A DNA stretch of 63,593 bases from positions 1-63,593 of the IMG/VR virus record IMGVR_UViG_3300005581_002829, one strand, 5' to 3'. This DNA comes from a virus. The translations under genes were made by a program, and so were the position numbers. This document shows, one piece after another, positions 5,016-57,053 of the stretch. Position 1 is the stretch's first letter, and the number at the start of each line of letters is the position of its first letter. Below the pieces are notes generated by a model. That model was not told where the DNA came from. It worked only from the letters and a program-made list of their open reading frames with translations, and did not search any database.

Positions 5016-5903
5016 TTACCTATTTTTTAAAAGTTCGTACATCCTTGCGTACGTTTCTTTTATCCCGGTTTCAATATCAATTTTTTGTTCCCATCCTGTA
5101 CTTTTTAATAAACTATTATCAGGTACAAAATTCATAGTATCCCTATCTGCGATGTCGGTAGTATCAATTTTTAATTCAGAAGCGCTTTCCAATAGCTGCA
5201 CTAACTCAGATGTAGGAGTTAATATACTTGAACAAACATTTACTGGACCAGTAAGGTCAGAATAAACTAATCCAAAGATTGCGTCTGCAACATCTTCTAC
5301 ATGTATATAATCTCTAACAGCATCTAATGCTTTTACTTTGGTTGTTCCATCTAAAACTAATTCTTTTATCATTCTATTAATGAATAACGGATTCTTGTAT
5401 CTATCATATTCTCCATATATTGTAGATACTCTCGCAGTTATACTAGGAACATCTGAGTATAATTTTGTTACTTCTTCAGCTAAGTATTTACTAAAGATAT
5501 AATTATTTTTATATGGATTTATCTTTTGTGTTTCATCCACTTTACTCAAAATAGTGTTTTCATCGTAAATAGATACTGTACCTATGCTAACAATCTTTTC
5601 TATTTTTTTGACATCTTTAAAATATGAGAATATTTTTCGAATAGGCAATACGTTCTTTTCAATGTCATCGATACTAAATGTATCTGTATTATTAAGAGAA
5701 ATAAAATCGGAATTGCCGATTAACATTATTACTCGATCAAAATATAATCTTTCTAATACTTCAGGTAATTTTTCTATGCTGTCGCAATTGATATGATATC
5801 TTGCTTCATTTGGTTGTGTTCTACCTACAGAAATAACATCTTTATATTTTTTTAGTATATGCGAACCTAAAAAACCATTCCCCCCTAAAATGACTGTGCT
5901 CAT
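5016..5903 (-). CDS. Extended SDR sugar-nucleotide epimerase/dehydratase, copy 1
   Basis: This 295-residue NAD(P)-dependent SDR has GGNGFLG for dinucleotide binding at residues 8-14 and a catalytic Y-x-x-x-K in NNYIFSKYLAEE. The C-terminal part contains RDYIHVEDVADAI and a typical GWEQKIDIETGI ending. It is a clear paralogue of the next gene upstream (5936-6817). A late TATAAATA box and an AAAGGAG ribosome binding site lie directly before it, so it can be expressed separately. The exact substrate is unknown; a nucleotide sugar is expected from the family and context. Confidence 0.8.
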   Translation of the reverse strand: MSTVILGGNGFLGSHILKKYKDVISVGRTQPNEARYHINCDSIEKLPEVLERLYFDRVIMLIGNSDFISLNNTDTFSIDDIEKNVLPIRKIFSYFKDVKKIEKIVSIGTVSIYDENTILSKVDETQKINPYKNNYIFSKYLAEEVTKLYSDVPSITARVSTIYGEYDRYKNPLFINRMIKELVLDGTTKVKALDAVRDYIHVEDVADAIFGLVYSDLTGPVNVCSSILTPTSELVQLLESASELKIDTTDIADRDTMNFVPDNSLLKSTGWEQKIDIETGIKETYARMYELLKNR

Positions 5904-5924
5904 GTATTCTCCTTTTGTTGCTAA

Positions 5925-5932
5925 TATTTATA
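5925..5932 (-). promoter_or_regulatory. T4-type late promoter box (TATAAATA)
   Basis: An exact TATAAATA on the minus strand lies 22 nt before the SDR gene at 5903 and 4 nt after the stop of the preceding paralogue. In T4-like phages this box is read by RNA polymerase carrying gp55. Confidence 0.75.
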
Positions 5933-5935
5933 ATA

Positions 5936-6817
5936 TTAATGATACATTTCGCACATTTTTCTATAGGTTTTCCGTAAGCCGGTATCAAGATCAAATTTAG
6001 GTTCCCAGCCGGTTAATTTTTTTATTAAACTAATATCGGCCACAAATTTCATATGGCCAGTTGCAGGTCCATCACCCAATTCAATTTTTATTTTAGATTC
6101 ATCTTCTAATATACGAACAACGTCTGCAACAGAATTAATTTGGCCACTAGCAACGTTAACAGGACCTGTATAATCAGTATGTAATAATTTAACAATTGCA
6201 TCAGATGCATCTTCAGTATAAATAAAATCTCGTTGAGGTTTAAGGTTTAGTACTCTTGCTTTTTTATTAAATACTAAACCTTCTACTAATTGATTTACCA
6301 GGTCTGGTCGATTTAATGCAGTTGTTGGACCATAGATATTAGTTAATCTAACAATAATATTTGGAATTTCAGAATAAAAATTTGCAACTTGTTCGCCTAA
6401 ATATTTACTAAAGATATAATTGTTTTGATATGGTCTTAATGCCTGTGTTTCATCTACCGGCAAAATCATTTGGTCACGATCATATAATAGGATAGAACTA
6501 AAACTAATAAGTTTCTTTATTGGTCTTTGCTGAAAATATGATAAAATTTTTGTCAACGGAATAAGATTTTTATCTATAGCTTCAAGATGATATGGTTTTT
6601 GTTCATTTAAAATTGTATGATTAGAGCTACCAATCATCATTATAACTTTATCAAATTCTAAAGTATCTAATACTTTAGAAAGATGTTCTATGCTAGGACA
6701 ATCTACATGATGTACTGCACTAGCAGGTTTAGTTCTACCAACAGAAATAATATCAGGATATTTTTTTAATATTTGAGGACCTAAAAATCCGCTTCCACCT
6801 AAAATAATTGTGCTCAT
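5936..6817 (-). CDS. Extended SDR sugar-nucleotide epimerase/dehydratase, copy 2
   Basis: The 293-residue product has GGSGFLG at the N-terminus and the catalytic Y-x-x-x-K in NNYIFSKYLGEQ. It also has QRDFIYTEDASDAIVKL and a C-terminal GWEPKFDLDTGL. It aligns along its whole length with the gene at 5016-5903, for example in the shared NYIFSKYL block, so the two arose by tandem duplication and have since diverged. It overlaps the next upstream gene by 4 nt. The reaction on a nucleotide sugar is inferred. Confidence 0.8.
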   Translation of the reverse strand: MSTIILGGSGFLGPQILKKYPDIISVGRTKPASAVHHVDCPSIEHLSKVLDTLEFDKVIMMIGSSNHTILNEQKPYHLEAIDKNLIPLTKILSYFQQRPIKKLISFSSILLYDRDQMILPVDETQALRPYQNNYIFSKYLGEQVANFYSEIPNIIVRLTNIYGPTTALNRPDLVNQLVEGLVFNKKARVLNLKPQRDFIYTEDASDAIVKLLHTDYTGPVNVASGQINSVADVVRILEDESKIKIELGDGPATGHMKFVADISLIKKLTGWEPKFDLDTGLRKTYRKMCEMYH

Positions 6818-7098
6818 ACTGTATCCTTTATTTCAATGTCATGTATATATAAAAGCATCAAAGCATAGTGCAATATTTTCATAATATCTTTTCTATTCTT
6901 TCCATTCTTTTTACCGTACCGTTGTGTATATTTTAATACATTCCCGGCAGTAAATCCCTCACCGTGTCCACTATCTATAATAAACTCAGTAGCTTGAAAC
7001 TTATTAAGAGAATAGTGTTCGCTATATGTGCTATTAATATATTGTTTTAATTCTTCTATTAAGGTATCTTCATTATACTTATAATTTATTTTCTCCAA
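6814..7098 (-). CDS. Small DUF3310-like phage protein
   Basis: The 94-residue protein contains GNVLKYTQRYGKKNGKNRKDI followed by a helical KILHYALMLL segment. That is the pattern of DUF3310 (SaV-like) proteins common in phages, often labelled nucleotide kinases without proof. The frame has no ATG; the start taken is the TTG at 7098, which lies inside the end of the glycosyltransferase gene and reads TTGGAGAAA. Function unknown. It separates the SDR pair from the glycosyltransferases. Confidence 0.55.
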   Translation of the reverse strand: MEKINYKYNEDTLIEELKQYINSTYSEHYSLNKFQATEFIIDSGHGEGFTAGNVLKYTQRYGKKNGKNRKDIMKILHYALMLLYIHDIEIKDTV

Positions 7099-7811
7099 GG
7101 AAGTACTCCATTATATTTAGTGTTCATTAATTCATTTCCCTTAAGGAAAAATTCTTTTTGTACGGAATCCATTCTGTTTCCTGCTCTATAGTTAACAGTA
7201 TATTCCCCTGATACGTTACAATCTATTTTATTACCTTTAAGTGCGTATGTCAATGCTCGATCAACTTCAGGTTGATCGTCGGGATGTCTTGCTCTCCTAT
7301 GCCATAATGGGGATAATTGCAATGCCAATTGTCTAGGAAAAAAGAAACAATTTACATCCACAAAATAATCTCCAATAACCGATTCCCAATTACCTAGGCT
7401 TTCACAATCATCATTACAAATATAAGTTCCATCTTGATCTACAATTTTTCTTAATGAGCACGCCCATTTATCATCTTTAATAACTGACATTAAACTTTCT
7501 ATATGATTCGGTTCTACCCAATTATCTTCATCCAGAAAAGAGATATAATTACCCTTTGCCAAATACGTGGATGCTCCATAAATTTTATGACCATTGTATT
7601 GTTCAATGCCGGTAGGATAAGGTAATACTATTAGATCAATATCTAAATTAGGAATTCGTTCAAGTATTTTTTCAACCTTATCAAAATGGTGAGCACCATC
7701 AACCACTACTAAGTGTTGAAAATTTTTATATGTTTGATTTGCAACTGATAAAATATTTTGTTCCAAATATTCGGAACCGGTTGTTGCTGTTACTATAGTT
7801 ACATCACTCAT
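7086..7811 (-). CDS. GT2-family glycosyltransferase
   Basis: The 241-residue GT-A fold enzyme opens with VTIVTATTGSEYLEQNILSV and has the nucleotide-sugar metal site in YISFLDEDNWVEPNHIE (D-x-D type). Further down is a WHRRARHPDDQPEVDRAL segment. GT2 enzymes transfer a sugar from a nucleotide donor to a glycan, and the acceptor cannot be read from sequence. It is one of three adjacent glycosyltransferase genes with 1- to 4-nt overlaps or gaps. Confidence 0.85.
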   Translation of the reverse strand: MSDVTIVTATTGSEYLEQNILSVANQTYKNFQHLVVVDGAHHFDKVEKILERIPNLDIDLIVLPYPTGIEQYNGHKIYGASTYLAKGNYISFLDEDNWVEPNHIESLMSVIKDDKWACSLRKIVDQDGTYICNDDCESLGNWESVIGDYFVDVNCFFFPRQLALQLSPLWHRRARHPDDQPEVDRALTYALKGNKIDCNVSGEYTVNYRAGNRMDSVQKEFFLKGNELMNTKYNGVLPWRK

Positions 7812-8623
7812 TATTTACTTTCAAAATATTGTTTATATGTTCTTGCAATATATCCTTTATTGCGCTCAAAAATTTCACCCATTCTCGAATTAACTTTAGA
7901 TTCGGATTTTTCTCTAGTAGATCCCCAATCAACTTCACTATCATATTTTAATGCATAGACTCCATTCTTATATCCATGCATATTCATTCGAATGCTCATA
8001 TCATGGCAATCAAAACCGCATGGAGCTAAATCCTCATTATAAAAACCTACTTCGTTATATCTTTTCCATTGTATACATGTAGGGCTACGAATAACTGCTT
8101 CAGTTATTACAAATTCATTATACTTAATTTCCTTAAAATGTGTTAATCCTAATTTTTTCCAATGCCCAAATTCTGATTCTTGAAAATTACTTTCAAATAT
8201 ACTATTGCCATCAGAATGTAAGCTACATCCTAACCTACACGTAATATATCCTAAATCAGTATATGCCTCAAATAGATTTCTAAAAATTAAATCTATATTA
8301 TCTTCTTTAAGTACAACATCGTCTTGTACAGTAAAAATTAAATCATCAGGAGAAGGATTACAATTATTTCGAATATACGAAAGTCCGGTGTTTAAAGATA
8401 ATATTTCATGCACATCATTTTGATAAAGCAATGTTACTTTATCCTCAATAGAATTTGCAGTAATATATTCTTTTAGTATTGCCTCCGTTTTATCTGTACA
8501 TCCATCTATAATAAAAATAATTTCATAAGGTATAGTTTCACTTACCGATCTATAAATTCCATCAATAACTTGTTCAATTAAATTTTCTTTATTATGAACA
8601 GGTGTTATAAAATATGCTTTCAT
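7811..8623 (-). CDS. GT2-family glycosyltransferase
   Basis: The 270-residue protein begins AYFITPVHNKENLIEQ and has EIIFIIDGCTDKTEAIL, the typical GT2 nucleotide-binding strand. DLIFTVQDDVVL provides the D-D metal site, and the C-terminal half has the CGFDCHDMSIRM block. It is a cytoplasmic enzyme with no signal peptide or membrane helix. It overlaps both neighbours by 1-4 nt, showing an operon of sequentially coupled glycosyltransferases. Confidence 0.85.
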   Translation of the reverse strand: MKAYFITPVHNKENLIEQVIDGIYRSVSETIPYEIIFIIDGCTDKTEAILKEYITANSIEDKVTLLYQNDVHEILSLNTGLSYIRNNCNPSPDDLIFTVQDDVVLKEDNIDLIFRNLFEAYTDLGYITCRLGCSLHSDGNSIFESNFQESEFGHWKKLGLTHFKEIKYNEFVITEAVIRSPTCIQWKRYNEVGFYNEDLAPCGFDCHDMSIRMNMHGYKNGVYALKYDSEVDWGSTREKSESKVNSRMGEIFERNKGYIARTYKQYFESK

Positions 8624-9315
8624 AAAAATATTCCTTTATCAAACTTTACAGATGCGGGTAAATTTTTTTGATCAAACCCCTCAAATTCCTTCATTGAGCC
8701 AGGATACAAAGGCATATCATATTCATCATATCCATTACCGCAAAACGAATACCTATTCTTTAGTTTTAATCTAGTATCCTTGAACCAACCTTCTTTCATA
8801 CAGTGTATCATTGTAGTTTCTTTTACATAGGGGTAAATATAATCTCTAAGATATACTTGGTCATTGGTATAGTAATTAGTGTTAAACATAAATTTATTCA
8901 TAACATCTAATATATAATCTGGCAATTTACCTTTAAATCCAAACGCACACGCAATTATTGGAAATTCATAATGTGCTTCGTGGTCTCTATAGATATGAAA
9001 AGATTTACTAGAATCAACCCATTCGCCAACAGCCATTTGTTCTCGCTGCGTAATTCTGCCATCTGCATCTCTAACAATTACTATATTATCTTGATCTTCA
9101 AATAGGGGCAAAAATCTCCAGAATACCCCATGACTATTATCTTTAATTTCTATAATCTGAGCATCCGGCATTAACTTCTCATATCGTTTTCTATCATCAG
9201 TATAAATTCGATATGTCCAATCTGGATAAAATTCTTTTGTTAATTCATATTGTCTTATTGCTCCAAAGACATATCTAATATTGTTACCATATTCGGAAGT
9301 TGAAACTATTTTCAT
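8620..9315 (-). CDS. Putative GT-A glycosyltransferase
   Basis: The 231-residue protein has WTYRIYTDDRKRYEKLMPDA followed by GVFWRFLPLFEDQDNIVIVRDADGRI. The RDAD segment corresponds to the D-x-D metal site of GT-A sugar transferases. The family occurs in bacterial polysaccharide loci and in viruses and is usually left unannotated. The sugar and acceptor are unknown. It ends in a 4-nt overlap with the GT2 gene and starts 3 nt after the dehydratase gene. Confidence 0.65.
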   Translation of the reverse strand: MKIVSTSEYGNNIRYVFGAIRQYELTKEFYPDWTYRIYTDDRKRYEKLMPDAQIIEIKDNSHGVFWRFLPLFEDQDNIVIVRDADGRITQREQMAVGEWVDSSKSFHIYRDHEAHYEFPIIACAFGFKGKLPDYILDVMNKFMFNTNYYTNDQVYLRDYIYPYVKETTMIHCMKEGWFKDTRLKLKNRYSFCGNGYDEYDMPLYPGSMKEFEGFDQKNLPASVKFDKGIFL

Positions 9316-9318
9316 ATA

Positions 9319-10266
9319 TCACCAAATAAAATTGTGTTTATAATATTTTACTATTTCTTTTAAAGATTTATTGAAATCTGCTACAGGTTTCCATCCTAGA
9401 TTTTTTAATTTAGTATCGTCTATAGAATATCTAACATCCTGGCCTTGACGCTTTTCAGAAAAATCCATATACTTATTATAATCTTTTATCGAACCTTTAA
9501 AGAATATATCTATAGTTTTCTTGGCAACTACAATATTCTGTTCTTCATAGTTGCCCGAGATGTTATAAATTTCATTAACACTTTTAGATTTAATTAAAGT
9601 TATAATTGCGGATGCCGTATCTTCTACATGCAACCAAGTCCTTTTAGGTGTACCATTATCATGCATAACAATAGGTCTTCCTAAAGATAAATGTTTACAT
9701 GCTTTCGGAATAAATTTTTCTACATACTGTCCGATGCCATAATTATTAGTTGGTCTAACAATTAAGTATGGTACTTCATATGTTCTTGCCCAAGCAAGAA
9801 CCAACATATCTGCGGCGGCTTTAGTTGCGGAATAAGGATTACTAGGTTTTAATAAATCTCTTTCAACGTGTGCACCTTGTTCAATATCCCCATATACTTC
9901 ATCTGTACTAAAATGTAAAAGTATAGGTCTTCTTGCTTTTGGTTTTGCTTTAATAAGCTCTAGTATTTTGTGTACACCATTTATGTTACTTTTAAGAAAC
10001 ACTTCAGAACTAACTATGCTATTATCGACATGAGTTTCTGCGGCAGTGTTAATAACATAATCGCAATCAAAAATACAATCTAAATCATTAATATCCGATT
10101 CTAAAAATTTAAACTTAGGATACTTTAATAATGAAGGAAGGAAATTTAAATTGCTAGCATAAGTCTTTTTGTCTACACCAAAAACATAGTGGCCTTCATC
10201 CAAGATTTTTTTAGTTACATGATAACCTATAAACCCCAAACACCCCGTAACATAAAGTATTTTCAT
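9319..10266 (-). CDS. rfbB: RmlB-type NDP-glucose 4,6-dehydratase
   Basis: This 315-residue SDR has TGCLGFIG for NAD binding and GVDKKTYASNLNFL, typical of dTDP-glucose dehydratases. HFSTDEVYGD supplies the T-D-E catalytic residues, and NPYSATKAAAD the Y-x-x-x-K. The enzyme converts NDP-glucose to the 4-keto-6-deoxy sugar. The RmlB-like VDKxTYA segment suggests a dTDP donor, but a CDP donor feeding the RfbH-like gene cannot be excluded. No nucleotidylyltransferase (RmlA type) is seen in the window, so the activated sugar would come from the host or from elsewhere in the phage. Confidence 0.85.
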   Translation of the reverse strand: MKILYVTGCLGFIGYHVTKKILDEGHYVFGVDKKTYASNLNFLPSLLKYPKFKFLESDINDLDCIFDCDYVINTAAETHVDNSIVSSEVFLKSNINGVHKILELIKAKPKARRPILLHFSTDEVYGDIEQGAHVERDLLKPSNPYSATKAAADMLVLAWARTYEVPYLIVRPTNNYGIGQYVEKFIPKACKHLSLGRPIVMHDNGTPKRTWLHVEDTASAIITLIKSKSVNEIYNISGNYEEQNIVVAKKTIDIFFKGSIKDYNKYMDFSEKRQGQDVRYSIDDTKLKNLGWKPVADFNKSLKEIVKYYKHNFIW

Positions 10267-11051
10267 ATATAATCCCCAAATCCTTTTTCCAAACCATCCA
10301 GTTCAATTCCCAAAGTTTTTAACCCGAAACTGCTCCCAGTGTAGTTATTAAAACTAGTACTGATAACTTTGAAGGTTGGTTCCAAGTTACAAACTTTGCA
10401 AAAAAGTTCTAATGCCTCACTAATTTTAATTTTATTTTCATAAACAGCATTAACATCACTGATTGGCCATGCTTGCTTTATATAATAATCAACTACTTTA
10501 CATAAATCATTTATACTAAAATAATCAAAATATCTATCGTTACTAATTTCGATATGTCCTTGTTTTAGAAAACGTGAAAACAATCTTGTTTCTAATTCGC
10601 CATATCCAAAACAATTAAAGATACGAATATTATAAAAGTTATCAGTTTTTGCAGACAATCTTGCCTTTACATTTTGCCCCCAACCGTAACTGTCTTTAGG
10701 CATATGATTAAAAATATCTGATTCTATTACACAATCAATATTTGTGGACCTATCAAACTCCGCACCCGACGCAGTATTAATAAATTTACCAAATAATTCT
10801 CTATTATTATAGAAGTTCATAAAGATACCTAGGTTATTTCTAGCATCGTTTAATGACTCGTCATTAGTCATAATTGCCGCGCAATTAATAATTACATCAA
10901 AGTTTCCTTCTTTTAAAAACATTGTAACCGCATTAGGATTAAGCATATCCAATATGTCCCTAGTTACAGGAGTCACATGGTGATTGCTTATTAAATGTCT
11001 CGCAAGGTTTCGCCCAACAAAACCTTTTGCACCTAACACGGCTATTCTCAT
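10263..11051 (-). CDS. RmlD-like NAD(P)-dependent sugar reductase/epimerase
   Basis: The protein has 262 residues with GAKGFVGRNLARHL at the N-terminus (Rossmann loop), DVIINCAAIM and the catalytic region INTASGAEFD. The catalytic Tyr/Lys pair is probably in DSYGWGQNVKARL, where Y-x-x-x-x-x-K is not canonical, so activity is uncertain. It is a member of the RmlD/NAD-epimerase superfamily and would act after the 4,6-dehydratase by reducing a 4-keto group. It overlaps both neighbours by 4 nt. Confidence 0.65.
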   Translation of the reverse strand: MRIAVLGAKGFVGRNLARHLISNHHVTPVTRDILDMLNPNAVTMFLKEGNFDVIINCAAIMTNDESLNDARNNLGIFMNFYNNRELFGKFINTASGAEFDRSTNIDCVIESDIFNHMPKDSYGWGQNVKARLSAKTDNFYNIRIFNCFGYGELETRLFSRFLKQGHIEISNDRYFDYFSINDLCKVVDYYIKQAWPISDVNAVYENKIKISEALELFCKVCNLEPTFKVISTSFNNYTGSSFGLKTLGIELDGLEKGFGDYI

Positions 11052-12826
11052 ATCTTAACAATCATCTCCGCGTCAAGCTCTTCCTGACTTAAGAACGGAC
11101 TCATTTCATGTAGACCGCCCTGCTTCCCGTCTGGTTTCATAGCCTGTGCTGGCTGCACGTCTAGTTCGTGCTGACTCATAAACTCAACAATAACAGGATG
11201 ATTTCCGCGCATGACGCCAGACATATATGTGTCTAACCCTTGATTATTAGTTATTTTAAAATAAGGAATTTCAAATGCATCAGCAATTCTAGAAATATCT
11301 GCAAAATATACGCCGGTTGAATTACTAACTCCCCATTGACGTCCGCCGAACATTTTATTTTGTGTTTGTTTAATACTCATATAGCCATCGTTATTAATAA
11401 CAAAAATCTTAACAGGAATATTATGTTGTCTGATTACAGCAAGTTCCTGCATATTAGTATAGAAACTACCTTCTCCAATAACTAACACAATGTTTAGGCT
11501 AGGATCCGCAAAATGAACTCCGACACTCGCGGGTAAAGCATATCCCATATCACCCTGGGCAGATTGAGCCATATAACGACAGTCTTTTTTGTACTTACCG
11601 TTAGTAGAAAGTATGTAACATGGTTGCCCTGCGTCTACAACAAAACAATCTTTCGACTCCATATTACGATTAATACTTTCCACAATTTCATATAGATTTA
11701 ACCCATCTGTATCTGGACGATGAACTTCCGGTTGATATAGCGGCCATTTATTTTTCCAATACAAACATTTATCGGCCCAAGTGTTTAATTTATAATCGCT
11801 CGGGTTACGTTGCATTGTATATAGAAAATCATATACGTTACAATTAATTGCGTTATCAACTTTAAAGATATCTTTTTTAAGTTCACTAGGATCAATATCA
11901 ACCATGATTTTTGTACTATACGGACTAAAGGTTTTTGAATCATATCCTATATGTGTTACGTTCATTGAACAACCTAAAATAAGTAAACAGTCTGCATTTT
12001 GTAATGCAAAATTAGCAGCGCGTGCACCTTTGATGCCCATCATTCCTAAATTTTGATCATGTTCGTATTCAATTAAATCCCTAGAAAGAAATGTCGTAAC
12101 AAAGGGAATATTATATTTATCAACAATATTTCTAAACAATTCTCTAGCATTGCCCAGGGCAATCCCATTGCCTGCCACAATAACAGGGCGTTCAGATTTA
12201 AATAAAACTTGCAAGGCATCCATCACGCCTTCAATGTGTTTAGATGCGTGGTCTATTTTATCCTCAACGTATTCTTCGCAACCTTCTGGAATTTGCGCAG
12301 TCTGTATATTTCCCGGAACATCTATCCACACTGGTCCTGGACGCCCGTCTTGTGCAATGTGTATGGCTTTGGTTAATTCATATGGTATATCTTTAGCATT
12401 TTCTATAGCTATAGAGTATTTACAAATCCCCTCAACTGTTTTAATAGCATCAAGATCTTGAATACCATATTTACGAAGATGTATTCCTTTTTCTTTATTG
12501 ATGTACTTTGCCTGATTAGACATCCCAGTATTTCCACTTAAGAATAATACAGGAGCACTTTCCTCATAAGCATTTAACAAACTAGTCATTGCATTAGTTA
12601 CACCGCAGCCTGCAGTAACATTACAAACACTAAGTTTCTTATTAGTTCTCGCAGATCCTACTGCAGCATGCCCTGCGCCTTGTTCGTGATGAAATGCAAT
12701 ATAGTCAATATTTGGATTGCTGATAAACCCATCATTTAGGCCGGCAGTACTTCCCCCAACTAACCCATATACTTTAGTTACACCTATATCATTTAACTTT
12801 TTAGCAATATAATCACATACTCGCAT
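11048..12826 (-). CDS. Acetolactate-synthase-like TPP-dependent enzyme
   Basis: The 592-residue protein has the three-domain layout of the acetohydroxyacid synthase family. The N-terminal TPP Pyr domain carries the catalytic Glu in AFHHEQGAGHAA (E48). A central domain contains RPVIVAGNGI. The C-terminal TPP-binding domain has GDMGYALPASVGV and VIGEGSF with a downstream INNDGY, so the usual GDG is GEG. Context argues against branched-chain amino acid synthesis because there is no small regulatory subunit. Such enzymes in surface-sugar loci, such as YerE of yersiniose synthesis, transfer a two-carbon unit from pyruvate to a 4-keto sugar. That role is inferred. Confidence 0.8.
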   Translation of the reverse strand: MRVCDYIAKKLNDIGVTKVYGLVGGSTAGLNDGFISNPNIDYIAFHHEQGAGHAAVGSARTNKKLSVCNVTAGCGVTNAMTSLLNAYEESAPVLFLSGNTGMSNQAKYINKEKGIHLRKYGIQDLDAIKTVEGICKYSIAIENAKDIPYELTKAIHIAQDGRPGPVWIDVPGNIQTAQIPEGCEEYVEDKIDHASKHIEGVMDALQVLFKSERPVIVAGNGIALGNARELFRNIVDKYNIPFVTTFLSRDLIEYEHDQNLGMMGIKGARAANFALQNADCLLILGCSMNVTHIGYDSKTFSPYSTKIMVDIDPSELKKDIFKVDNAINCNVYDFLYTMQRNPSDYKLNTWADKCLYWKNKWPLYQPEVHRPDTDGLNLYEIVESINRNMESKDCFVVDAGQPCYILSTNGKYKKDCRYMAQSAQGDMGYALPASVGVHFADPSLNIVLVIGEGSFYTNMQELAVIRQHNIPVKIFVINNDGYMSIKQTQNKMFGGRQWGVSNSTGVYFADISRIADAFEIPYFKITNNQGLDTYMSGVMRGNHPVIVEFMSQHELDVQPAQAMKPDGKQGGLHEMSPFLSQEELDAEMIVKI

Positions 12827-12828
12827 TT

Positions 12829-13836
12829 TTAATCCTTTAGCATTTTAAATATATCAATGCATTTCGTTCTAAACTTAAAATCATTTATAAATTGTTGTTT
12901 TTCTAAACCAAAATTAGTTGGAGCAATAATACTTAATTTACCACCAACATTCTTTTTGTCTTTATTCATAGCTTCAAATACTTTATCGAATTCTATATTA
13001 TTTAAAATATCTAAAAATTCTGCATACAGAATGTATAAGATACTATGATATTTATCATACCACTCTTTATTAGTTAACGCATTTGCTAAATCCATTCCTA
13101 TTGCAACAGCTATGCCGTGTGGTATATCATAGTTACTAGCACTTTCTATTGCATGCCCAAAACAATGTCCGTAATTTAATAAATTACGAATACCTTTATC
13201 GAATTCATCTGCCTCAATAAAATATTTTTTGATGAGTAATGCTTTAGCTATATGCTCATCTGTAACTGGTCTAGATGATGCTACTTTAAAAATCTCTTTT
13301 TTATCGCAATTATTAATTATCATAAGTTTAATTAATTCCGACAATCCGCTTTTTATGTCTCGATTTTCTAATGTATTACGAAACTTATTATCAATGTAAA
13401 CATTTCTGGGAGGATTAAATGTACCTAACAGATTTTTATATTGATTAAAATTAATTGAACTTTTACTACCTATACAACTATCCGTTTGCGCAAGTAAAGT
13501 AGTTGGGACAAAACTCCAGGGTATTCCTCTCATAAAAGTTGAAGCAATCCAACAAGTTATATCCTGGGTAATACCTCCACCTATTGCAATCAAATGACTA
13601 TCTCTTCGCATATTCATTTTAACCAAAGTATCTATAATACTATCCGCTGCCTGATAGCTTTTTTCCGATTCGTTCGCATTAATAATAATAGCATTATTTA
13701 AGTTTATATTATAATAGTCTACTACAGTTTTGTCAATAATAAAGTGAGTACCAATTTCAGCAATATTAATAGTATTGATACTACAAAATTCTACGTTATA
13801 ATTACCAAATTTACTTTTTACTTCAAAATCAAGCAC
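12829..13836 (-). CDS. 3-dehydroquinate-synthase-like sugar phosphate cyclase
   Basis: The protein has 335 residues. The NAD loop is IAIGGGITQD (the standard enzyme has GGGVxGD), followed by STFMRGIPWSFVPTTLLAQTDSCIGSKSSIN. The zinc ligands are conserved: Glu in SGLSELIK, His in LNYGHCFGHAIE, and His in YDIPHGIAVAIG. The fold makes carbocycles from keto-sugar phosphates; the GGG-x-x-QD version is typical of polysaccharide loci rather than the shikimate pathway, and no other aromatic genes are present. The start is GTG at 13836 with GGGGG about 8 nt upstream, overlapping the SDR stop by 8 nt. Confidence 0.8.
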   Translation of the reverse strand: MLDFEVKSKFGNYNVEFCSINTINIAEIGTHFIIDKTVVDYYNINLNNAIIINANESEKSYQAADSIIDTLVKMNMRRDSHLIAIGGGITQDITCWIASTFMRGIPWSFVPTTLLAQTDSCIGSKSSINFNQYKNLLGTFNPPRNVYIDNKFRNTLENRDIKSGLSELIKLMIINNCDKKEIFKVASSRPVTDEHIAKALLIKKYFIEADEFDKGIRNLLNYGHCFGHAIESASNYDIPHGIAVAIGMDLANALTNKEWYDKYHSILYILYAEFLDILNNIEFDKVFEAMNKDKKNVGGKLSIIAPTNFGLEKQQFINDFKFRTKCIDIFKMLKD

Positions 13837-44392: not shown

Positions 44393-44980
44393 TTATAAGG
44401 GTTCTACTTCGAAAATAGTATATTTGAATGATGCTATCGCTGTAAAATATTCTACACTTTGTGACGCAATGTCAAAATCAAGAGCCTGTAATGATATAGG
44501 GAAAAGATCTTTAAATATTATATTTACTTTAGGGTTGTTTGTCGAGTCTAAAATAGTCAAAGTTGCATCCGAGTAAGCCAAAATTTCAGATTGTCCATCA
44601 GGTTTTGTCACAAAAGGAAAACTGCTAGGTCTGGTTTTAGCAAATGTCGAAAATTGATTATAATTGCTTGGGAACCCAAGAGCAATAAGCCAACGATATA
44701 ATTCTATATAATTGGACATATCTTCTGATATTAAAAATCTAATCGTAAAATCTCCGAAATTGAGTTTGTCGCCTATAGTAGGAATATCTACAAACGGGGT
44801 TGGTTGTGTTGCAAATCCTAATTGTAAATCAGGAAGATTTGCAGATTGACAAGTAAAGGAGGTATTTGGCAAATCCTTGATACCAAATTTAAAAGCATTC
44901 GGTCTAAGGAAATCATACGTTCTTTGTAAAGAATTAGACGTAGTCTCTTGAATTGTATCTATATTTCTAGTAAATGCCAT
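44393..44980 (-). CDS. Tail-tube-fold virion protein (gp19-like, possibly the gp3 position)
   Basis: The 195-residue protein has RTYDFLRPNAFKFGIKDLP, FTCQSANLPDLQLG, PTIGDKLNFGDFTIRFLISEDMSNYIELYRWL and a LFPISLQALDFDIASQS strand pattern. This is like the tail-tube superfamily and distinct from the true gp19 at 50854-51429. The place directly after 23 is where related phages have a tail completion protein. An exact late promoter box precedes it. Confidence 0.6.
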   Translation of the reverse strand: MAFTRNIDTIQETTSNSLQRTYDFLRPNAFKFGIKDLPNTSFTCQSANLPDLQLGFATQPTPFVDIPTIGDKLNFGDFTIRFLISEDMSNYIELYRWLIALGFPSNYNQFSTFAKTRPSSFPFVTKPDGQSEILAYSDATLTILDSTNNPKVNIIFKDLFPISLQALDFDIASQSVEYFTAIASFKYTIFEVEPL

Positions 44981-50853: not shown

Positions 50854-51429
50854 TTAACCTAATGATGTAATTGCGTTGACCAATTGTTGTGCAGGATTAT
50901 TAGAGAATTCAAAAGATTGATACTGAAATGATACGCCAAAAGTTGACAACTGATCGTTGGATCCGAAATCTAAACCTACTGCTCCAAGATCAACTGGGAA
51001 GGCACCTAATAATTTATATTGTTTTAGAACTGCGCCGTTGCGATCTAATTGAGAAATAAACATATCAGTTTGATACTGGGAAGGTTGTAAAGCACCAGTC
51101 TTATTAGCTAGGTCCTCTATACCATTCATCCATTGTTCTATTGCTGTTCTAATTGAGAATCCAGAATCATTTAAGACTGTACAATTAAAGGGAGCAAATT
51201 CTCTATCACCTGCCATCTTAACTAATCGTCCGCGATAATAAACAGGAGTAACTCCTAGAGTTTGTCCTGGCAATTCTGCTACACTAACTAAGAATGGAGC
51301 TTTAGTTACGGCCGCCCCTCTTCCCGCAACATAGTTTGGGAAGGTTAGCTGAACCGCAAACTGATTCGGTCTTGCACCGCCGTTTGTTAGTTCGGATTTA
51401 AATCTTTCTACATTAAATGGTACTGCCAT
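50854..51429 (-). CDS. 19: Tail tube protein gp19
   Basis: The 191-residue protein has PNQFAVQLTFPNYV, TKAPFLVSVAELPGQTLG, PVYYRGRLVKMAGDREFAPF and YKLLGAFPVDLGAVGLDFGS, matching gp19. It stacks as hexamers inside the sheath. It directly follows gene 18, as in T4. It is somewhat longer than T4 gp19 (163). Confidence 0.93.
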   Translation of the reverse strand: MAVPFNVERFKSELTNGGARPNQFAVQLTFPNYVAGRGAAVTKAPFLVSVAELPGQTLGVTPVYYRGRLVKMAGDREFAPFNCTVLNDSGFSIRTAIEQWMNGIEDLANKTGALQPSQYQTDMFISQLDRNGAVLKQYKLLGAFPVDLGAVGLDFGSNDQLSTFGVSFQYQSFEFSNNPAQQLVNAITSLG

Positions 51430-51444: not shown

Positions 51445-54102
51445 TTATGCCCCTACTTCTTCGAAGGATACGCCAGTTCTTGTAGCAACAAAATTCAACT
51501 GAATGAAATTAATTGCTCTTGCTGGTTTGATGAATATATCCGCGACAAATTCATTTCTATCTATAACTTCTGCGGTATTATTTGTTTCATCGCATACCAC
51601 TCTAAAATCTGTAACACCTCTACGACCTTGAACATCTCTCAAGAATGGTTCTACTAAATTTCGAAATTGTCCGCGAGTAAATGGATCGTTGAATTCGAAC
51701 AATTGGAATTTAGAAGCGGTAGCTATTGCTTTTTCCAATACGATAAACAATCTACGCACATTGATACGATCAAATGCACTTGGTCTAGATTGTAATGTCT
51801 TATCTCCAAACAATAAAGTACCTTGTCCCGGGAATGTTACCACAGGATTTATACCTTTCTTGTATAGAGTATCTCTATCTGTTTTAGCAGGTGAGTATGC
51901 CAATTTAACTACATTTTTAATAACACCTCTATTATATCCAGCAGGAGAGAACCAAGGATCTGCAATATAATCTGTTCTTGCTGCAAGACCAGCAACATCT
52001 CCATTTAATGGGACATATCTGTATTTGTCGTTGTAACGATCATACTGATATTTCCATCCAGAATCTAAAACAGCGAATGAAGAGTCTGTTAACGTATTTC
52101 TATAAGCAACAATTTTGTCTGCCTGACCTGTAGTATTTACTACGTCTGTATATTGAGGTGATGCAAATACTACGCAATCTCTTCTTGCTTCCGCAATGGC
52201 AATAACACTATTTACTACGCTTGCTGTTGTAGTTGGTCCCATTGGAATTAGACTTATATCATACAATTCGTCATTTGAGAATAACGAATACCCTGTAGTT
52301 AGATTGCCGGCGGTTATACTATCTCCAGCTACACCTGCAGATAAATTCTGAGTTAAATTTGCAGCCAAAACATCAAAAGCGGTTGTTGAAGCCGTGCCCC
52401 AATCATCTCCACTTTCATGGTGATTTAACCACCAGATATATCTAGATTGATTGTTAATTACATTCTTGTAGTAATTAGTTGAACCGTCGGAATTTTTGGC
52501 ATCCGATGCTTTAGATAAGAAAGAGAATTTTTCTAAAACAGAACCAGCTGTTCCAGAAATAGAACCTGTTCTATCCAATACTATTACGTGCAATTCGTCG
52601 CCCGAACCACCCTTCTCTGTTACATATGCAGATGTCGATGGAGCAGCATCGAATTGACTAGCATATTGCCATGCAGTAAAGCCCCCCGAATCTGCAAGAG
52701 AAACTCTAATAGAATTGCCTAAAATTCCTGGATATTTTGCTGCCCATTGTCCATATAGTAATCCGCCAGTTGAATAATTAGCATCATAATTATCAAAATT
52801 TGAAATTAAAATTGAACCTTGGGATAATACTGCATTTGCAAATACATCTCCAGATGGGACTGTTACTGTAATTTCCGGCGTTGCAGAATATCCTGTTCCT
52901 GCATTAGTGATTGTAATTCTATCAACAGCATATCTTAGTTCAGACGTTGCTACTGCTGTAACTGCGGGAGAATCAACGGGGTCGGGTGTAAATGTAATTA
53001 TAGGTGCGGCAAGATACCCATTACCTCCAGTTATTACAGTAACGCCCACTACCCTTGCTTCCATTCTACCTATAGCGGAGGCATTGGCACCGCCAAACTC
53101 ACTATTTTTATTTATATTTACAGTAATACCACTACTATAGCCTGTACCAGGATTAACTACATTTGCTCCTGTAATTATACCATGACCTAAAGTAACACTA
53201 ATATTAGCATTCGCATTTGACCCCTCTGGGCCATTACGTAATACAGATACATTTGGCATAGAAGTATATCCAGAACCAACACTTATTACATTAAAACTTG
53301 TAATATTACCATCTGGACCCGTAGCAATTAATTGAATATTTGCACCAGAGCCACCGCCACCTGAAATTACCAACAAACTACTATTACTATAGCCATTACC
53401 GCTACTAATAATAGTTGCATTTGACACAGAAAAACTTATTTGTAAATTTCCTGTAGCACCTTCGCCGCCACCGCCAGATATTATAATATTTGAATTTGAA
53501 TTATAATTATTTCCTCCAGATAATATTGTCAAACTGACAACATTACCGCTTCCTAAAATAGCAATTGCATTTGCCGCATAACCGCCGGCGGATAAATTTG
53601 CTGTAGCATTAACAGTAGGAGCTACAGAATATCCTTGTCCTAATACGGACATCGTAATTGCGTTAATTGCGCCAGTATTTGCTAGCAAGGCATTACCTGT
53701 AGCTTGCGTACCTCCCTCTACACCTGGGGCAGCTATAGCTACAGAAATTCCTGATAAAGAAGTATAAGTATTTGATGAAGAACTAACAACTATACTGGTA
53801 ATAGTTCCCGATGGAGTAGAAGTTGCGTTTCTAGCAACACCTTTATCTACAACGCGAACTAAGTTTAAATTGTTTCCATAAGATAAAAAATTTGCTGCAG
53901 TAAAGAAATATCCCGCAGTTGAATCATTCGGTTGACCAAAATTAGTTACTAGATTTTTTTCCGAATCTACAGTTGTAACTTCTTCCACTGGACCCCATTG
54001 GAATGCTCCTGCAAATGCGCCAGCAGTGGTTGCAACCGAGGGAACTAAAGTAGTTCTATCTTGTTCAGTTACTACAACGCCAGGTGAAAGCTGAAATGCC
54101 AT
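51445..54102 (-). CDS. 18: Tail sheath protein gp18 with a large repeat insertion
   Basis: The 885-residue protein is far longer than T4 gp18 (659). The N-terminus (SPGVVVTEQDRTTLVPSVAT, then TTAGAFAGAFQWGPV) and the C-terminal half (TRGQFRNLVEPFLRDVQGRRGVTDFRVVCDETNN) are standard sheath parts that contract on infection. Between about residues 95 and 430 lies an insertion of Gly/Ser/Asn-rich beta repeats with a G-x-G-Y core every 40-42 residues. T4 inserts its surface-exposed domain I at nearly the same place (about residue 98). A late box and AAGGAG site precede the start. Confidence 0.92.
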   Translation of the reverse strand: MAFQLSPGVVVTEQDRTTLVPSVATTAGAFAGAFQWGPVEEVTTVDSEKNLVTNFGQPNDSTAGYFFTAANFLSYGNNLNLVRVVDKGVARNATSTPSGTITSIVVSSSSNTYTSLSGISVAIAAPGVEGGTQATGNALLANTGAINAITMSVLGQGYSVAPTVNATANLSAGGYAANAIAILGSGNVVSLTILSGGNNYNSNSNIIISGGGGEGATGNLQISFSVSNATIISSGNGYSNSSLLVISGGGGSGANIQLIATGPDGNITSFNVISVGSGYTSMPNVSVLRNGPEGSNANANISVTLGHGIITGANVVNPGTGYSSGITVNINKNSEFGGANASAIGRMEARVVGVTVITGGNGYLAAPIITFTPDPVDSPAVTAVATSELRYAVDRITITNAGTGYSATPEITVTVPSGDVFANAVLSQGSILISNFDNYDANYSTGGLLYGQWAAKYPGILGNSIRVSLADSGGFTAWQYASQFDAAPSTSAYVTEKGGSGDELHVIVLDRTGSISGTAGSVLEKFSFLSKASDAKNSDGSTNYYKNVINNQSRYIWWLNHHESGDDWGTASTTAFDVLAANLTQNLSAGVAGDSITAGNLTTGYSLFSNDELYDISLIPMGPTTTASVVNSVIAIAEARRDCVVFASPQYTDVVNTTGQADKIVAYRNTLTDSSFAVLDSGWKYQYDRYNDKYRYVPLNGDVAGLAARTDYIADPWFSPAGYNRGVIKNVVKLAYSPAKTDRDTLYKKGINPVVTFPGQGTLLFGDKTLQSRPSAFDRINVRRLFIVLEKAIATASKFQLFEFNDPFTRGQFRNLVEPFLRDVQGRRGVTDFRVVCDETNNTAEVIDRNEFVADIFIKPARAINFIQLNFVATRTGVSFEEVGA
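52813..53820 (-). repeat. Array of about seven 41-residue beta repeats inside gp18
   Basis: This part codes for residues 95-430. The core G-x-G-Y (or G-x-N-Y) recurs at about residues 156, 198, 236, 277, 319, 361 and 402. It is followed by a P/S-x-V/I strand and often a GGGG-x-GA turn. The repeats differ enough that they are not simple DNA tandem copies. Confidence 0.8.
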
Positions 54103-54174: not shown

Positions 54175-55860
54175 TTAGACATTTTCAAGGAACTTTCTTT
54201 GCATTTCTTCAATTTCATCTCTATTCTTAGATCCCACGTTAAACCAGATTGCATCTGTCATAATCTGAGGAGCTTCATGTTCGGGGATGCCCGTATCTAT
54301 AATACCAAACGGAGTAAGATTTTCCTCAATCTGTTTGAACTGCTCTTCATATAAAGCTTTTCTAAGATTCGAGTCAGTTAAATCTTTAAAGAATGATTCA
54401 TTGGTGGCCCAGGAAAATAGCACCAAACACATAACCAAATCGTCCTGGTATCCTTCATCTGCTTTATGAGATCCTCGAACTTCAATAAATGTAGATATTT
54501 CATTAATAATATCTGGGTCATGTATTAATAATTTTGTGCCCTCAACTAAACTCTTGAAAGACGTACAACCTAATCGTTTTACTTGTTTGGTAGTTCTAAC
54601 CCCCAGAGTTGCTCCCTGAGAGAATCCTCCAGATAAGAATTGTCCAGATTTACTATTACTTCCTACAAAAAACACGTTCTCATATTCTAAATCCATATAC
54701 AAAGTATCTGCTACTTGTTGTCCGTTATCGTTAATCTCAACTAAACAATAAGCTTTGTTATAATCTTTGGCTACTTTATATATAATATTTGGGAAAAGAA
54801 GAGGGCTTATTTTATTGTTTCTGTATTTTGCAACAACCTTAAAAGGATATGTAGTAATATCCATGACTGCAAATGCAGAGTAATCTCCACCTACACCTCG
54901 CGAGGTATCTGCAACTAGCATGTAAACCTTATCTTCTTCGGGTTCATCAAACACATCTAAACCATCTTTACTATATACATACGGTTTAACTGACATTCTA
55001 CCAATAGTATCTGGATTGATAAGTGTATTAGATGATCCCAGGAATCTACATAAAACTTCTTGATTAAACTTAAGTTCACCTAATAATGCTCTTTGTTCTT
55101 GCGCCCATTTTTCTGTTCTACCAGGAATCTCGCTGTAAGGAATAAACATAGGAACAAATCCGTTTAGACCTTGTTCTGCTTCATTCCAGAATTTCCAGAA
55201 ATGATTGTATCCTAATGGTGTAGAAGTTAAAAGAATCTTTGTAGTTTCACCTGCAGAAACAACAGGATAAACAGATGTGAAAAAATCCTCAGCTACATTG
55301 TTTGGAATAATTGCTGCTTCGTCAATGTATAACCAATTTACAGATTTACCTCGAATACCGGAAGAACTTGTTGCTGCAGTAAAAACTCTAGATCCGTTTT
55401 CTAATTCTATATCACCTTTGTTAAATGTCTTTACCCCTTGCTGCATCCAAATAGGCAACATTTCATACATCATCTCATATCTGTAAAGTACTTCCCTGGC
55501 GGCTGAAGATTTGTTAGCAAGAATAGCAACTGTTTTATTTGATTGGAATAATGTATACCAAAGTATGCAGGCAGCAGAGGTAATTGTTTTTCCTTGTTGT
55601 CGTCCTTCCATTAGAATAACCTTACGATTATTCAATATAGTTAATACCTTTTTCTTCTGGCAATCGTATAATTTAAATGGGATTAACCCTTTATCCAAAG
55701 AAACAATTTGGCAATATTGTTCTATAAAGTATATAGGCTCTTGAGAACATTTAATTATTTCTTTAACTTGTTCTGCAGAATATGATATAACCGTACCAAT
55801 CTGTTTTAGATTAGGATTCCCGTTGTAGGATAATTTTTTACTGGTCGATGATGTTGTCAT
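54175..55860 (-). CDS. 17: Terminase large subunit gp17
   Basis: The 561-residue protein has KVILMEGRQQGKTITSAA (Walker A), NWLYIDEAAIIP (Walker B) and LLTSTPLG (coupling motif). The C-terminal nuclease has MLVADTSRGVGGDYSAF with the metal Asp and YQDDLVMCLVLFSW. It packages DNA into proheads with ATP and cuts at headful. It overlaps gene 16 by 23 nt as in T4-like phages. Confidence 0.97.
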   Translation of the reverse strand: MTTSSTSKKLSYNGNPNLKQIGTVISYSAEQVKEIIKCSQEPIYFIEQYCQIVSLDKGLIPFKLYDCQKKKVLTILNNRKVILMEGRQQGKTITSAACILWYTLFQSNKTVAILANKSSAAREVLYRYEMMYEMLPIWMQQGVKTFNKGDIELENGSRVFTAATSSSGIRGKSVNWLYIDEAAIIPNNVAEDFFTSVYPVVSAGETTKILLTSTPLGYNHFWKFWNEAEQGLNGFVPMFIPYSEIPGRTEKWAQEQRALLGELKFNQEVLCRFLGSSNTLINPDTIGRMSVKPYVYSKDGLDVFDEPEEDKVYMLVADTSRGVGGDYSAFAVMDITTYPFKVVAKYRNNKISPLLFPNIIYKVAKDYNKAYCLVEINDNGQQVADTLYMDLEYENVFFVGSNSKSGQFLSGGFSQGATLGVRTTKQVKRLGCTSFKSLVEGTKLLIHDPDIINEISTFIEVRGSHKADEGYQDDLVMCLVLFSWATNESFFKDLTDSNLRKALYEEQFKQIEENLTPFGIIDTGIPEHEAPQIMTDAIWFNVGSKNRDEIEEMQRKFLENV

Positions 55861-56267: not shown

Positions 56268-57053
56268 TTATTTGTCTAAATGAAAATAATCAAATACTGG
56301 ATAAATTCTATCAGGCTTTAATAATTCTGGGAAAAAATCTTCAGGGGTGAGATGATCTGGAGGACGTTTACCTTCCATTCTGGATTCATTATCCCCCAAA
56401 TGCTCAACATATTTATCTTTTAAAAATACCGATCTAAATCCTAGCGAATGAAATCGTCTATCTATATTCCATTCATTATGCCATTTTTCTACTCGACCAA
56501 GTAATATTAAATCTTCTCTTCTTTTTAAATTAGGACTTCCCACCCACCCTATCCAATAATAATGATTGGCACTAACTCGCCAATTCTTTTTAAAATAAAA
56601 TGCATTATCGAATAACTGATCTTTATAATAAGTATCGTGGCCCTCGTGTTCAAATGTTCTAAATGAGATATCTATATTTCCTATATTTCTATAAGTCTGT
56701 AGTATCTTTTTAGATTCATACATATATCCAGATTTAATAAATTCCCAGTCATCTTCTAAATAAAATATAAACTCAGTATTACAGTAGCTAACCATAAAAT
56801 CCATCGCCCACCATTGTCCTCTATTATCAGGAAAACAAACTATATCGTAATAGGAGCCGTATATATTTACTAATCTATCATATACTTCAGGATTGCCGCT
56901 ATCATCTACAATTACTATTTTCGTAACATATTCGCACGTATTTAGAAAAGAATTTAATGTTTTTTCTAAAAGATGCAATCTATCACAACTTAAAACAAAT
57001 GTTGTAATATCAGAATCAGGTTGTTCTGTAGTGTGAACTCTCAATCGAGACAT
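56268..57053 (-). CDS. GT-A glycosyltransferase inserted between 15 and 16
   Basis: The 261-residue protein has TTFVLSCDRLHLLEKTLNSF, KIVIVDDSGNPEVYDRLV, DNRGQWWAMDFMV and FIFYLEDDWEFIKSGYM with the D-D metal site, a GT2-like layout. It is transcribed with terminase and neck genes, so it is probably made late. An acceptor on the virion would fit this context but cannot be read. Confidence 0.8.
   Translation of the reverse strand: MSRLRVHTTEQPDSDITTFVLSCDRLHLLEKTLNSFLNTCEYVTKIVIVDDSGNPEVYDRLVNIYGSYYDIVCFPDNRGQWWAMDFMVSYCNTEFIFYLEDDWEFIKSGYMYESKKILQTYRNIGNIDISFRTFEHEGHDTYYKDQLFDNAFYFKKNWRVSANHYYWIGWVGSPNLKRREDLILLGRVEKWHNEWNIDRRFHSLGFRSVFLKDKYVEHLGDNESRMEGKRPPDHLTPEDFFPELLKPDRIYPVFDYFHLDK

Follow-up and report, generated by a model that had tools for sequence, protein, structure and literature searches.

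The tail sheath gene of the window (the whole 63,593 nt stretch of viral DNA analysed, contig IMGVR_UViG_3300005581_002829) encodes a T4-type sheath protein interrupted by eight copies of a ~41-residue GxGY unit, and this insert is very probably an enlarged domain I of the T4-type sheath. The best overall explanation, in which the phage's own fibres or whiskers also dock on the enlarged domain, stands as a whole at a little short of an even chance.

The ORF at 51445-54102 (-) was intact and encoded an 885 aa T4-type tail sheath protein, gp18. It contained the sheath domains PF04984 (1e-15), PF17482 (1.6e-16) and PF22671 (gp18 domain III; 8.8e-10), all of which passed the curated Pfam cut-offs, and it matched phrog_23 (2.7e-132) over residues 1-883. 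The full-length AF2 model (pLDDT 81) superimposed on T4 gp18M (3foa) with a Z of 32.7 over 334 residues, an rmsd of 2.6 and 32 % identity. Gene order around gp18 was of the T4 type (small terminase, large terminase, gp18, gp19), with the small terminase (TerS) assigned to phrog_445. The boundaries of the insert were set by aligning relatives that possess merely 12-20 residues at the same place, referred to as site A. The sheath gene, its parts and its neighbours are as follows.

54175-55860, large terminase (TerL), found by homology in relatives
51445..54102 (-), gp18 sheath including the eight-unit insert, 885 aa (Pfam, phrog_23, AF2 model against 3foa)
53830..54102 (-), N-terminal sheath core, residues 1-91 (alignment to the 559-position core profile and to T4 residues 4-94)
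52798..53829 (-), insert, residues 92-435, eight units at core site A, probably of domain I type (relatives' 12-20-residue sites; insert-only model, Z 6.8-7.3)
51448..52797 (-), C-terminal sheath core, residues 436-885 (Pfam and PDB sequence matches, 9ev2 208-653 and T4 339-654)
50854-51429, gp19 tail tube (phrog_45)

Besides this gp19, another gp19-like tail tube protein (195 aa, phrog_45 1.6e-34) is encoded at 44393-44980 (-), adjacent to the gene for the major head protein. A complete set of fibre or baseplate genes was lacking from the contig.

The repeat occupies 52813-53820 (-), corresponding to residues 95-430 of the ORF and thus lying within the insert, as a preliminary description made from this DNA had correctly placed it. 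Gx(G/N)Y motifs were found at residues 155, 197, 235, 276, 319, 360 and 402, with 38-43 residues between neighbours. The same description had called the repeat seven-fold; its period of ~41 residues with GxGY was borne out, but a unit profile recognized eight units (starting at residues 99, 144, 186, 225, 265, 308, 350 and 392), the difference arising because the motif of unit 1 is degenerate (SSNTY) and lacks GxGY. The units are listed with their bit scores against the unit profile and an independent profile, respectively.

53698..53808 (-), unit 1, residues 99-135, degenerate motif SSNTY, 20.9 and 13.1 bits
53569..53673 (-), unit 2, residues 144-178, GQGY, 26.3 and 13.8 bits
53446..53547 (-), unit 3, residues 186-219, GNNY, 24.6 and 12.7 bits
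53338..53430 (-), unit 4, residues 225-255, GNGY, 14.0 and 8.4 bits
53206..53310 (-), unit 5, residues 265-299, GSGY, 32.2 and 21.5 bits
53077..53181 (-), unit 6, residues 308-342, GTGY, 24.8 and 18.8 bits
52954..53055 (-), unit 7, residues 350-383, GNGY, 22.6 and 20.8 bits
52834..52929 (-), unit 8, residues 392-423, GTGY, 28.2 and 28.3 bits

The independent profile, which was trained solely on sheaths of other phages with two to four units, outside the eight-unit clade, gave the window sheath 96.9 bits in eight domains, compared with 12.8 bits for the best of 1,000 shuffled inserts and -17 for the reversed protein. Repeat units made up 39 % of the protein, and unit 3 was the best conserved unit of the eight-unit clade (58 % mean identity between relatives).

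Tandem Repeats Finder detected no tandem array with a ~120-base period in the DNA, and the repeat is therefore a protein-level and old one, due neither to recent slippage nor to an assembly artefact. Counterpart units of different relatives shared 48 % identity, as against 26 % between different units, and the same sheath gene was recovered at 99.8 % identity from three further IMG/VR contigs (L098-L100); recent tandem duplication and assembly error were both rejected on the strength of these three observations. Growth by duplication of unit pairs was also discarded, no odd/even signal being detected (0.258 vs 0.261). Taken with the unit identities, this indicates an old array without visible pairwise copying, one that need not consist of four separate two-unit barrels; the expression 'four domain I equivalents' describes length and fold, not history.

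Eighty related sheaths from IMG/VR formed the comparison set. An empty site A measured 12-20 residues, and sites with two, three, four and eight units measured 95-98, 136 (a three-unit array was found in L042), 173-185 and 340-356 residues, respectively, so that the step between length classes was ~41 residues, i.e. one unit; sheaths mixing units with other pieces had 195-273 residues at this site. Repeat number in related gp18 proteins, a comparison proposed in the preliminary description, thus varies at a single site from none through two, three and four to eight. The core tree implied a minimum of six switches in the presence of the insert and of nine in unit class, both figures being rough as the state classes were derived from protein length and unit counts. 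Five sheaths of 763-871 aa (L114, L121, L167, L170 and L174) have extra residues at core positions ~97 and ~143 without the GxGY unit. A profile search found no unit near the sheath gene of cyanophage S-WAM1, and the size of its 932 aa sheath must therefore have another cause. A tblastn search of cultured phages with the insert gave no match, probably because of the low-complexity filter, and profile searches did reveal units there; the insert alignment is short of conserved stretches with which to search viral contigs.

The position of the insert is that of T4 domain I. On a 559-position core profile built from the empty sheaths, the ~330 extra residues of the window protein and the ~100 extra residues of T4 both fell between core positions 94 and 119, the same insertion point (core ~97, within domain II), as had been suggested from the sequence. 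Structure prediction of the region, proposed earlier for residues 90-435, gave an all-β insert whose top three matches were T4-type domain I. The insert-only model, for which no core sequence was supplied, had a pLDDT of 76 (about 80-85 in the part formed by units 4-5), and its best matches among solved structures were 3foa residues 99-186 (Z 7.3, rmsd 2.7), 9f4a residues 98-188 (Z 6.8) and 3fo8 residues 99-188 (Z 6.8); the first unrelated chain of the 969 compared had a Z of 3.4, and a Z near 7 is not decisive taken alone. The match joined model residues 136-214, which are protein residues 227-305 (units 4 and 5), to T4 residues 99-186 over 76 residues, so that two consecutive units spanned the entire T4 domain I in the superposition. 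T4 domain I is a six-stranded β-barrel with an α-helix (PMC3004832), and six strands fit two three-stranded units. No helix was predicted between residues 98 and 429 in either model, the α-helix of T4 domain I being absent. Foldseek alone returned no significant PDB match for the insert model, and a PDB sequence search with the insert profile gave nothing convincing. No Pfam Ig-like family matched the insert at E<=1, and the structure list, led by domain I, included one fibronectin domain at Z 2.7. A Pfam match to FlaA (E 0.03-0.05) was below the cut-off and was set aside.

Since the insert resembles domain I itself, it is best read as an enlarged domain I and not as an added arm. The long repetitive arm envisaged in the preliminary description is retained in so far as the insert is predicted to be all-β, sits at the domain I site and probably points outwards. 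A foreign adhesin inserted at random was rejected as the leading reading, domain I itself being the best structural match.

What is known of domain I in T4 suggests a function. The T4 domain protrudes, makes no sheath-sheath contacts and binds the retracted long tail fibres, and the gp18 substitutions G106S, S175F and A178V block fibre retraction (PMC3004832). G106 is the first Gly of 'GSNY', the repeat motif, and S175 and A178 lie within SSSSSGLAAV, which by its pattern would be the loop before the last strand of the second T4 unit; the mutant letters agree with the T4 sequence only when the first Met is left out of the numbering. The fibre-docking loops of T4 would thus be the loops that are present eight times in the window protein. 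As T4 domain I looks like a two-unit form, the patch on which fibres are parked is probably enlarged about fourfold in the window phage, and by analogy with T4 the insert is probably outward-facing. Fibre docking did not figure in the preliminary description; it is better grounded than the other functions considered, being known for T4 domain I, and is put forward tentatively as the main role of the insert, with a likelihood somewhat below even.

In the mechanism proposed, the small contractile core would be unchanged, and each subunit would therefore show a long β-rich module on the outer surface of the tail, built of eight three-strand GxGY units of which two would correspond to one T4 domain I. 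Docking of the phage's own fibres or whiskers along the tail, by analogy with T4, would most likely fall to two repeated loops, namely the GxGY turn and the one preceding the last strand, and array length and loop sequence would shift quickly as the partner shifts. The dense outer coat on the sheath that had been imagined would be a consequence of this geometry, provided that the insert is exposed. The hairy-tailed phage CBB was weighed as a parallel; the genes for its hairs are unknown (PMC5259590).

The insert changes faster than the core. The dN of the insert exceeded that of the core in 12 of 13 pairs (e.g. 0.126 vs 0.014 for L002/L007), and dN/dS was below 1 for the insert, indicating that it is constrained yet fast; dS was close to saturation in the more distant pairs. 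When gp18 was compared with the three near-identical contigs, all five amino-acid changes were in the insert and none in the core, whilst portal, tube, terminase and gp18 core showed ~50 silent and no amino-acid changes. The excess of amino-acid changes in the insert over core, portal, tube and TerL gave a Fisher p of 1.6e-6, and 2e-4 when the small terminase and a glycosyltransferase gene were added, for a small sample of three contigs with shared alleles, in which five changes are too few to tell whether there is positive selection. Against L099 and L100, few differences were seen before position 55207 and dozens from there onward; the change lies inside the terminase gene and looks like a recombination edge.

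The unit is also found in other virion proteins. The insert residues alone matched phrog_701 (3e-22), phrog_460 (5e-20) and phrog_708 (9e-19), and Pelagibacter phage Mosig has the unit in a frame that overlaps its gp3 gene. The gp14 neck protein of many phages with four-unit sheaths (L012, L020, L030, L034, L039 and others) was ~310 aa long, compared with ~250 aa, with two units near its C-terminus. Two units were likewise present in gp3 of L061 (356 aa). In NC_031944 (cyanophage S-WAM1) and GU071099 (P-RSM4), open frames of 6,600-6,700 residues encode giant virion proteins with many GxGY units. Its occurrence in neck, gp3, baseplate and giant virion proteins alike is in keeping with a general role in contacts at the virion surface.

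The main rival to fibre docking, an unlikely one, is contact with host glycans. The repeats would then resemble the Ig-like domains of other phages, acting as weak adhesion modules that touch surface glycans or particles and make adsorption likelier, with unit number and loop sequence tracking the host surface. The fast amino-acid change of the insert fits a changing partner of this kind, and the recurrence of the unit in baseplate, tail-fibre-like and giant virion proteins is consistent with it. Large phages commonly have multi-domain sheaths with extra outer β domains, for which a part in adhesion has been proposed (Evseev et al. 2022; PMC9230969). Against this, no Pfam or NCBIfam sugar-binding family matched the insert, and among structures one sialidase chain appeared at Z 2.7; moreover, the presence of the unit in the neck protein gp14 and in gp3 suits contacts within the virion at least equally well.

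It is less likely again that the insert is unrelated to domain I, i.e. a promiscuous surface domain that settled at the permissive site of T4 domain I and whose likeness to it is the convergence of small β-barrels. The sequence link between unit and T4 domain agrees with the structural one but is weak. The unit profile matched a motif at the start of domain I in T4-like phages (TISTPGSNYA in T4, VTITTEGQGYTV in Aeromonas phage avDM4), and scored 7.2 bits on T4 domain I, a value reached by three of 2,000 shuffles; hhalign of unit against T4 domain I gave P values of 0.003-0.01 and a probability of 4-11 %. The unit is also clearly mobile, since it occurs in other proteins and at other core sites: the cultured Xanthomonas phage X1 and Acidovorax phage ACP17 have two clear units each near core position ~240, and cyanophage S-CAM3 apparently has a weaker copy near core ~143, around which Pelagibacter and Methylophilales phages and several cyanophages carry other domains. 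On the other side, all of the top three of the 969 chains were domain I of T4-type sheaths, with twice the Z of the first unrelated chain, and both site and motif register agree with T4 domain I. With structure in favour, sequence weak and Foldseek negative, common descent of the unit and T4 domain I is likely, not proven.

A mechanical role, in which adjacent inserts pack together as an outer layer and stiffen or protect the extended tail, is slightly less probable still. A stabilizing role is suggested for extra sheath domains (PMC9230969), but T4 domain I makes no inter-subunit contacts (PMC3004832), the site is empty in a close relative group of the same family whose core is otherwise similar, and the insert varies fast, unlike a packing interface.

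The earlier suggestion that the Ser/Thr/Asn-rich repeats are a glycosyltransferase substrate, extended here to a sugar coat hiding or protecting the tail, is very improbable and gained no support: at a distance of three genes there is a GT2-like gene (56268-57053), and sugar-nucleotide genes occur at 5-23 kb, but no homologue of the former was detected in the flanks of the eight-unit relatives or in their long records G001-G003 (an empty record search run without a positive control), other targets are the usual explanation for phage sugar clusters, and richness in Ser, Thr and Asn is not evidence taken alone. The GT2-like gene (minus strand) lies between the small terminase and gp3 and is present in the near-identical L099 and L100, not in the other relatives searched. 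The sugar-nucleotide/glycan cluster at 5016-13836 (-) comprises three NAD epimerases, a GT2, a thiamine-pyrophosphate enzyme and a 3-dehydroquinate-synthase-like gene.

If the insert is an enlarged domain I, that domain gains a family and an evolutionary history, the motif glycine is tied to known fibre-retraction mutants, and sheath length variation in uncultured T4-like phages becomes a count of a defined unit. Trees and annotation can be misled by the fast-changing region in sheath genes of environmental T4-like phages. Should docking hold, sequence would predict which phages park their fibres along the tail, which can be tested in laboratory T4. More speculatively, and with the chances rather against it, T4 domain I, hitherto regarded as a one-off decoration, may be a shortened member of a mobile repeat family, open-water T4-like phages adding and dropping 41-residue units in sheath, neck and sheath-cap proteins to fit their fibres, as a tunable docking surface; fibre architecture would then be readable from the number of units in a sheath.

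No description of the GxGY repeat in sheaths was found in the open-licence literature, subscription journals lying mostly outside the search. As far as that literature reaches, three points appear to be new: that sheaths carry a ladder of GxGY repeats, that T4 domain I can be read as its two-unit form, and that the T4 fibre-retraction mutations overlap with the repeat motif. The Type 3 multi-domain sheaths of Evseev et al. (2022; PMC9230969) resemble the window sheath in having extra β-rich domains outside a conserved contractile core and in sizes up to the 800s; in the part of that account consulted, the extra domains are mostly described as Ig-like, with no GxGY ladder or link to T4 domain I. 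The sheaths of X1 and ACP17 share the GxGY unit with the window sheath, in two copies each and at core ~240, whereas the window insert lies at the domain I site (~97). Virion proteins of T4-like marine phages (phrog_701, virion protein; phrog_460, neck protein; phrog_708, baseplate wedge) share the ~41-residue unit by profile and predicted fold; these are other virion proteins, whereas the window unit sits in every sheath subunit. The closest counterpart is domain I of T4 gp18 (3fo8, 3foa; residues 98-188), which shares with the insert its point of insertion in the core and a GxxY motif placed as in the repeat, and with which the predicted fold of two units agrees over the whole domain. The T4 domain amounts to about two units, the second apparently without the GxGY turn and with an α-helix, whereas the window insert has eight units and is helix-free in the model.
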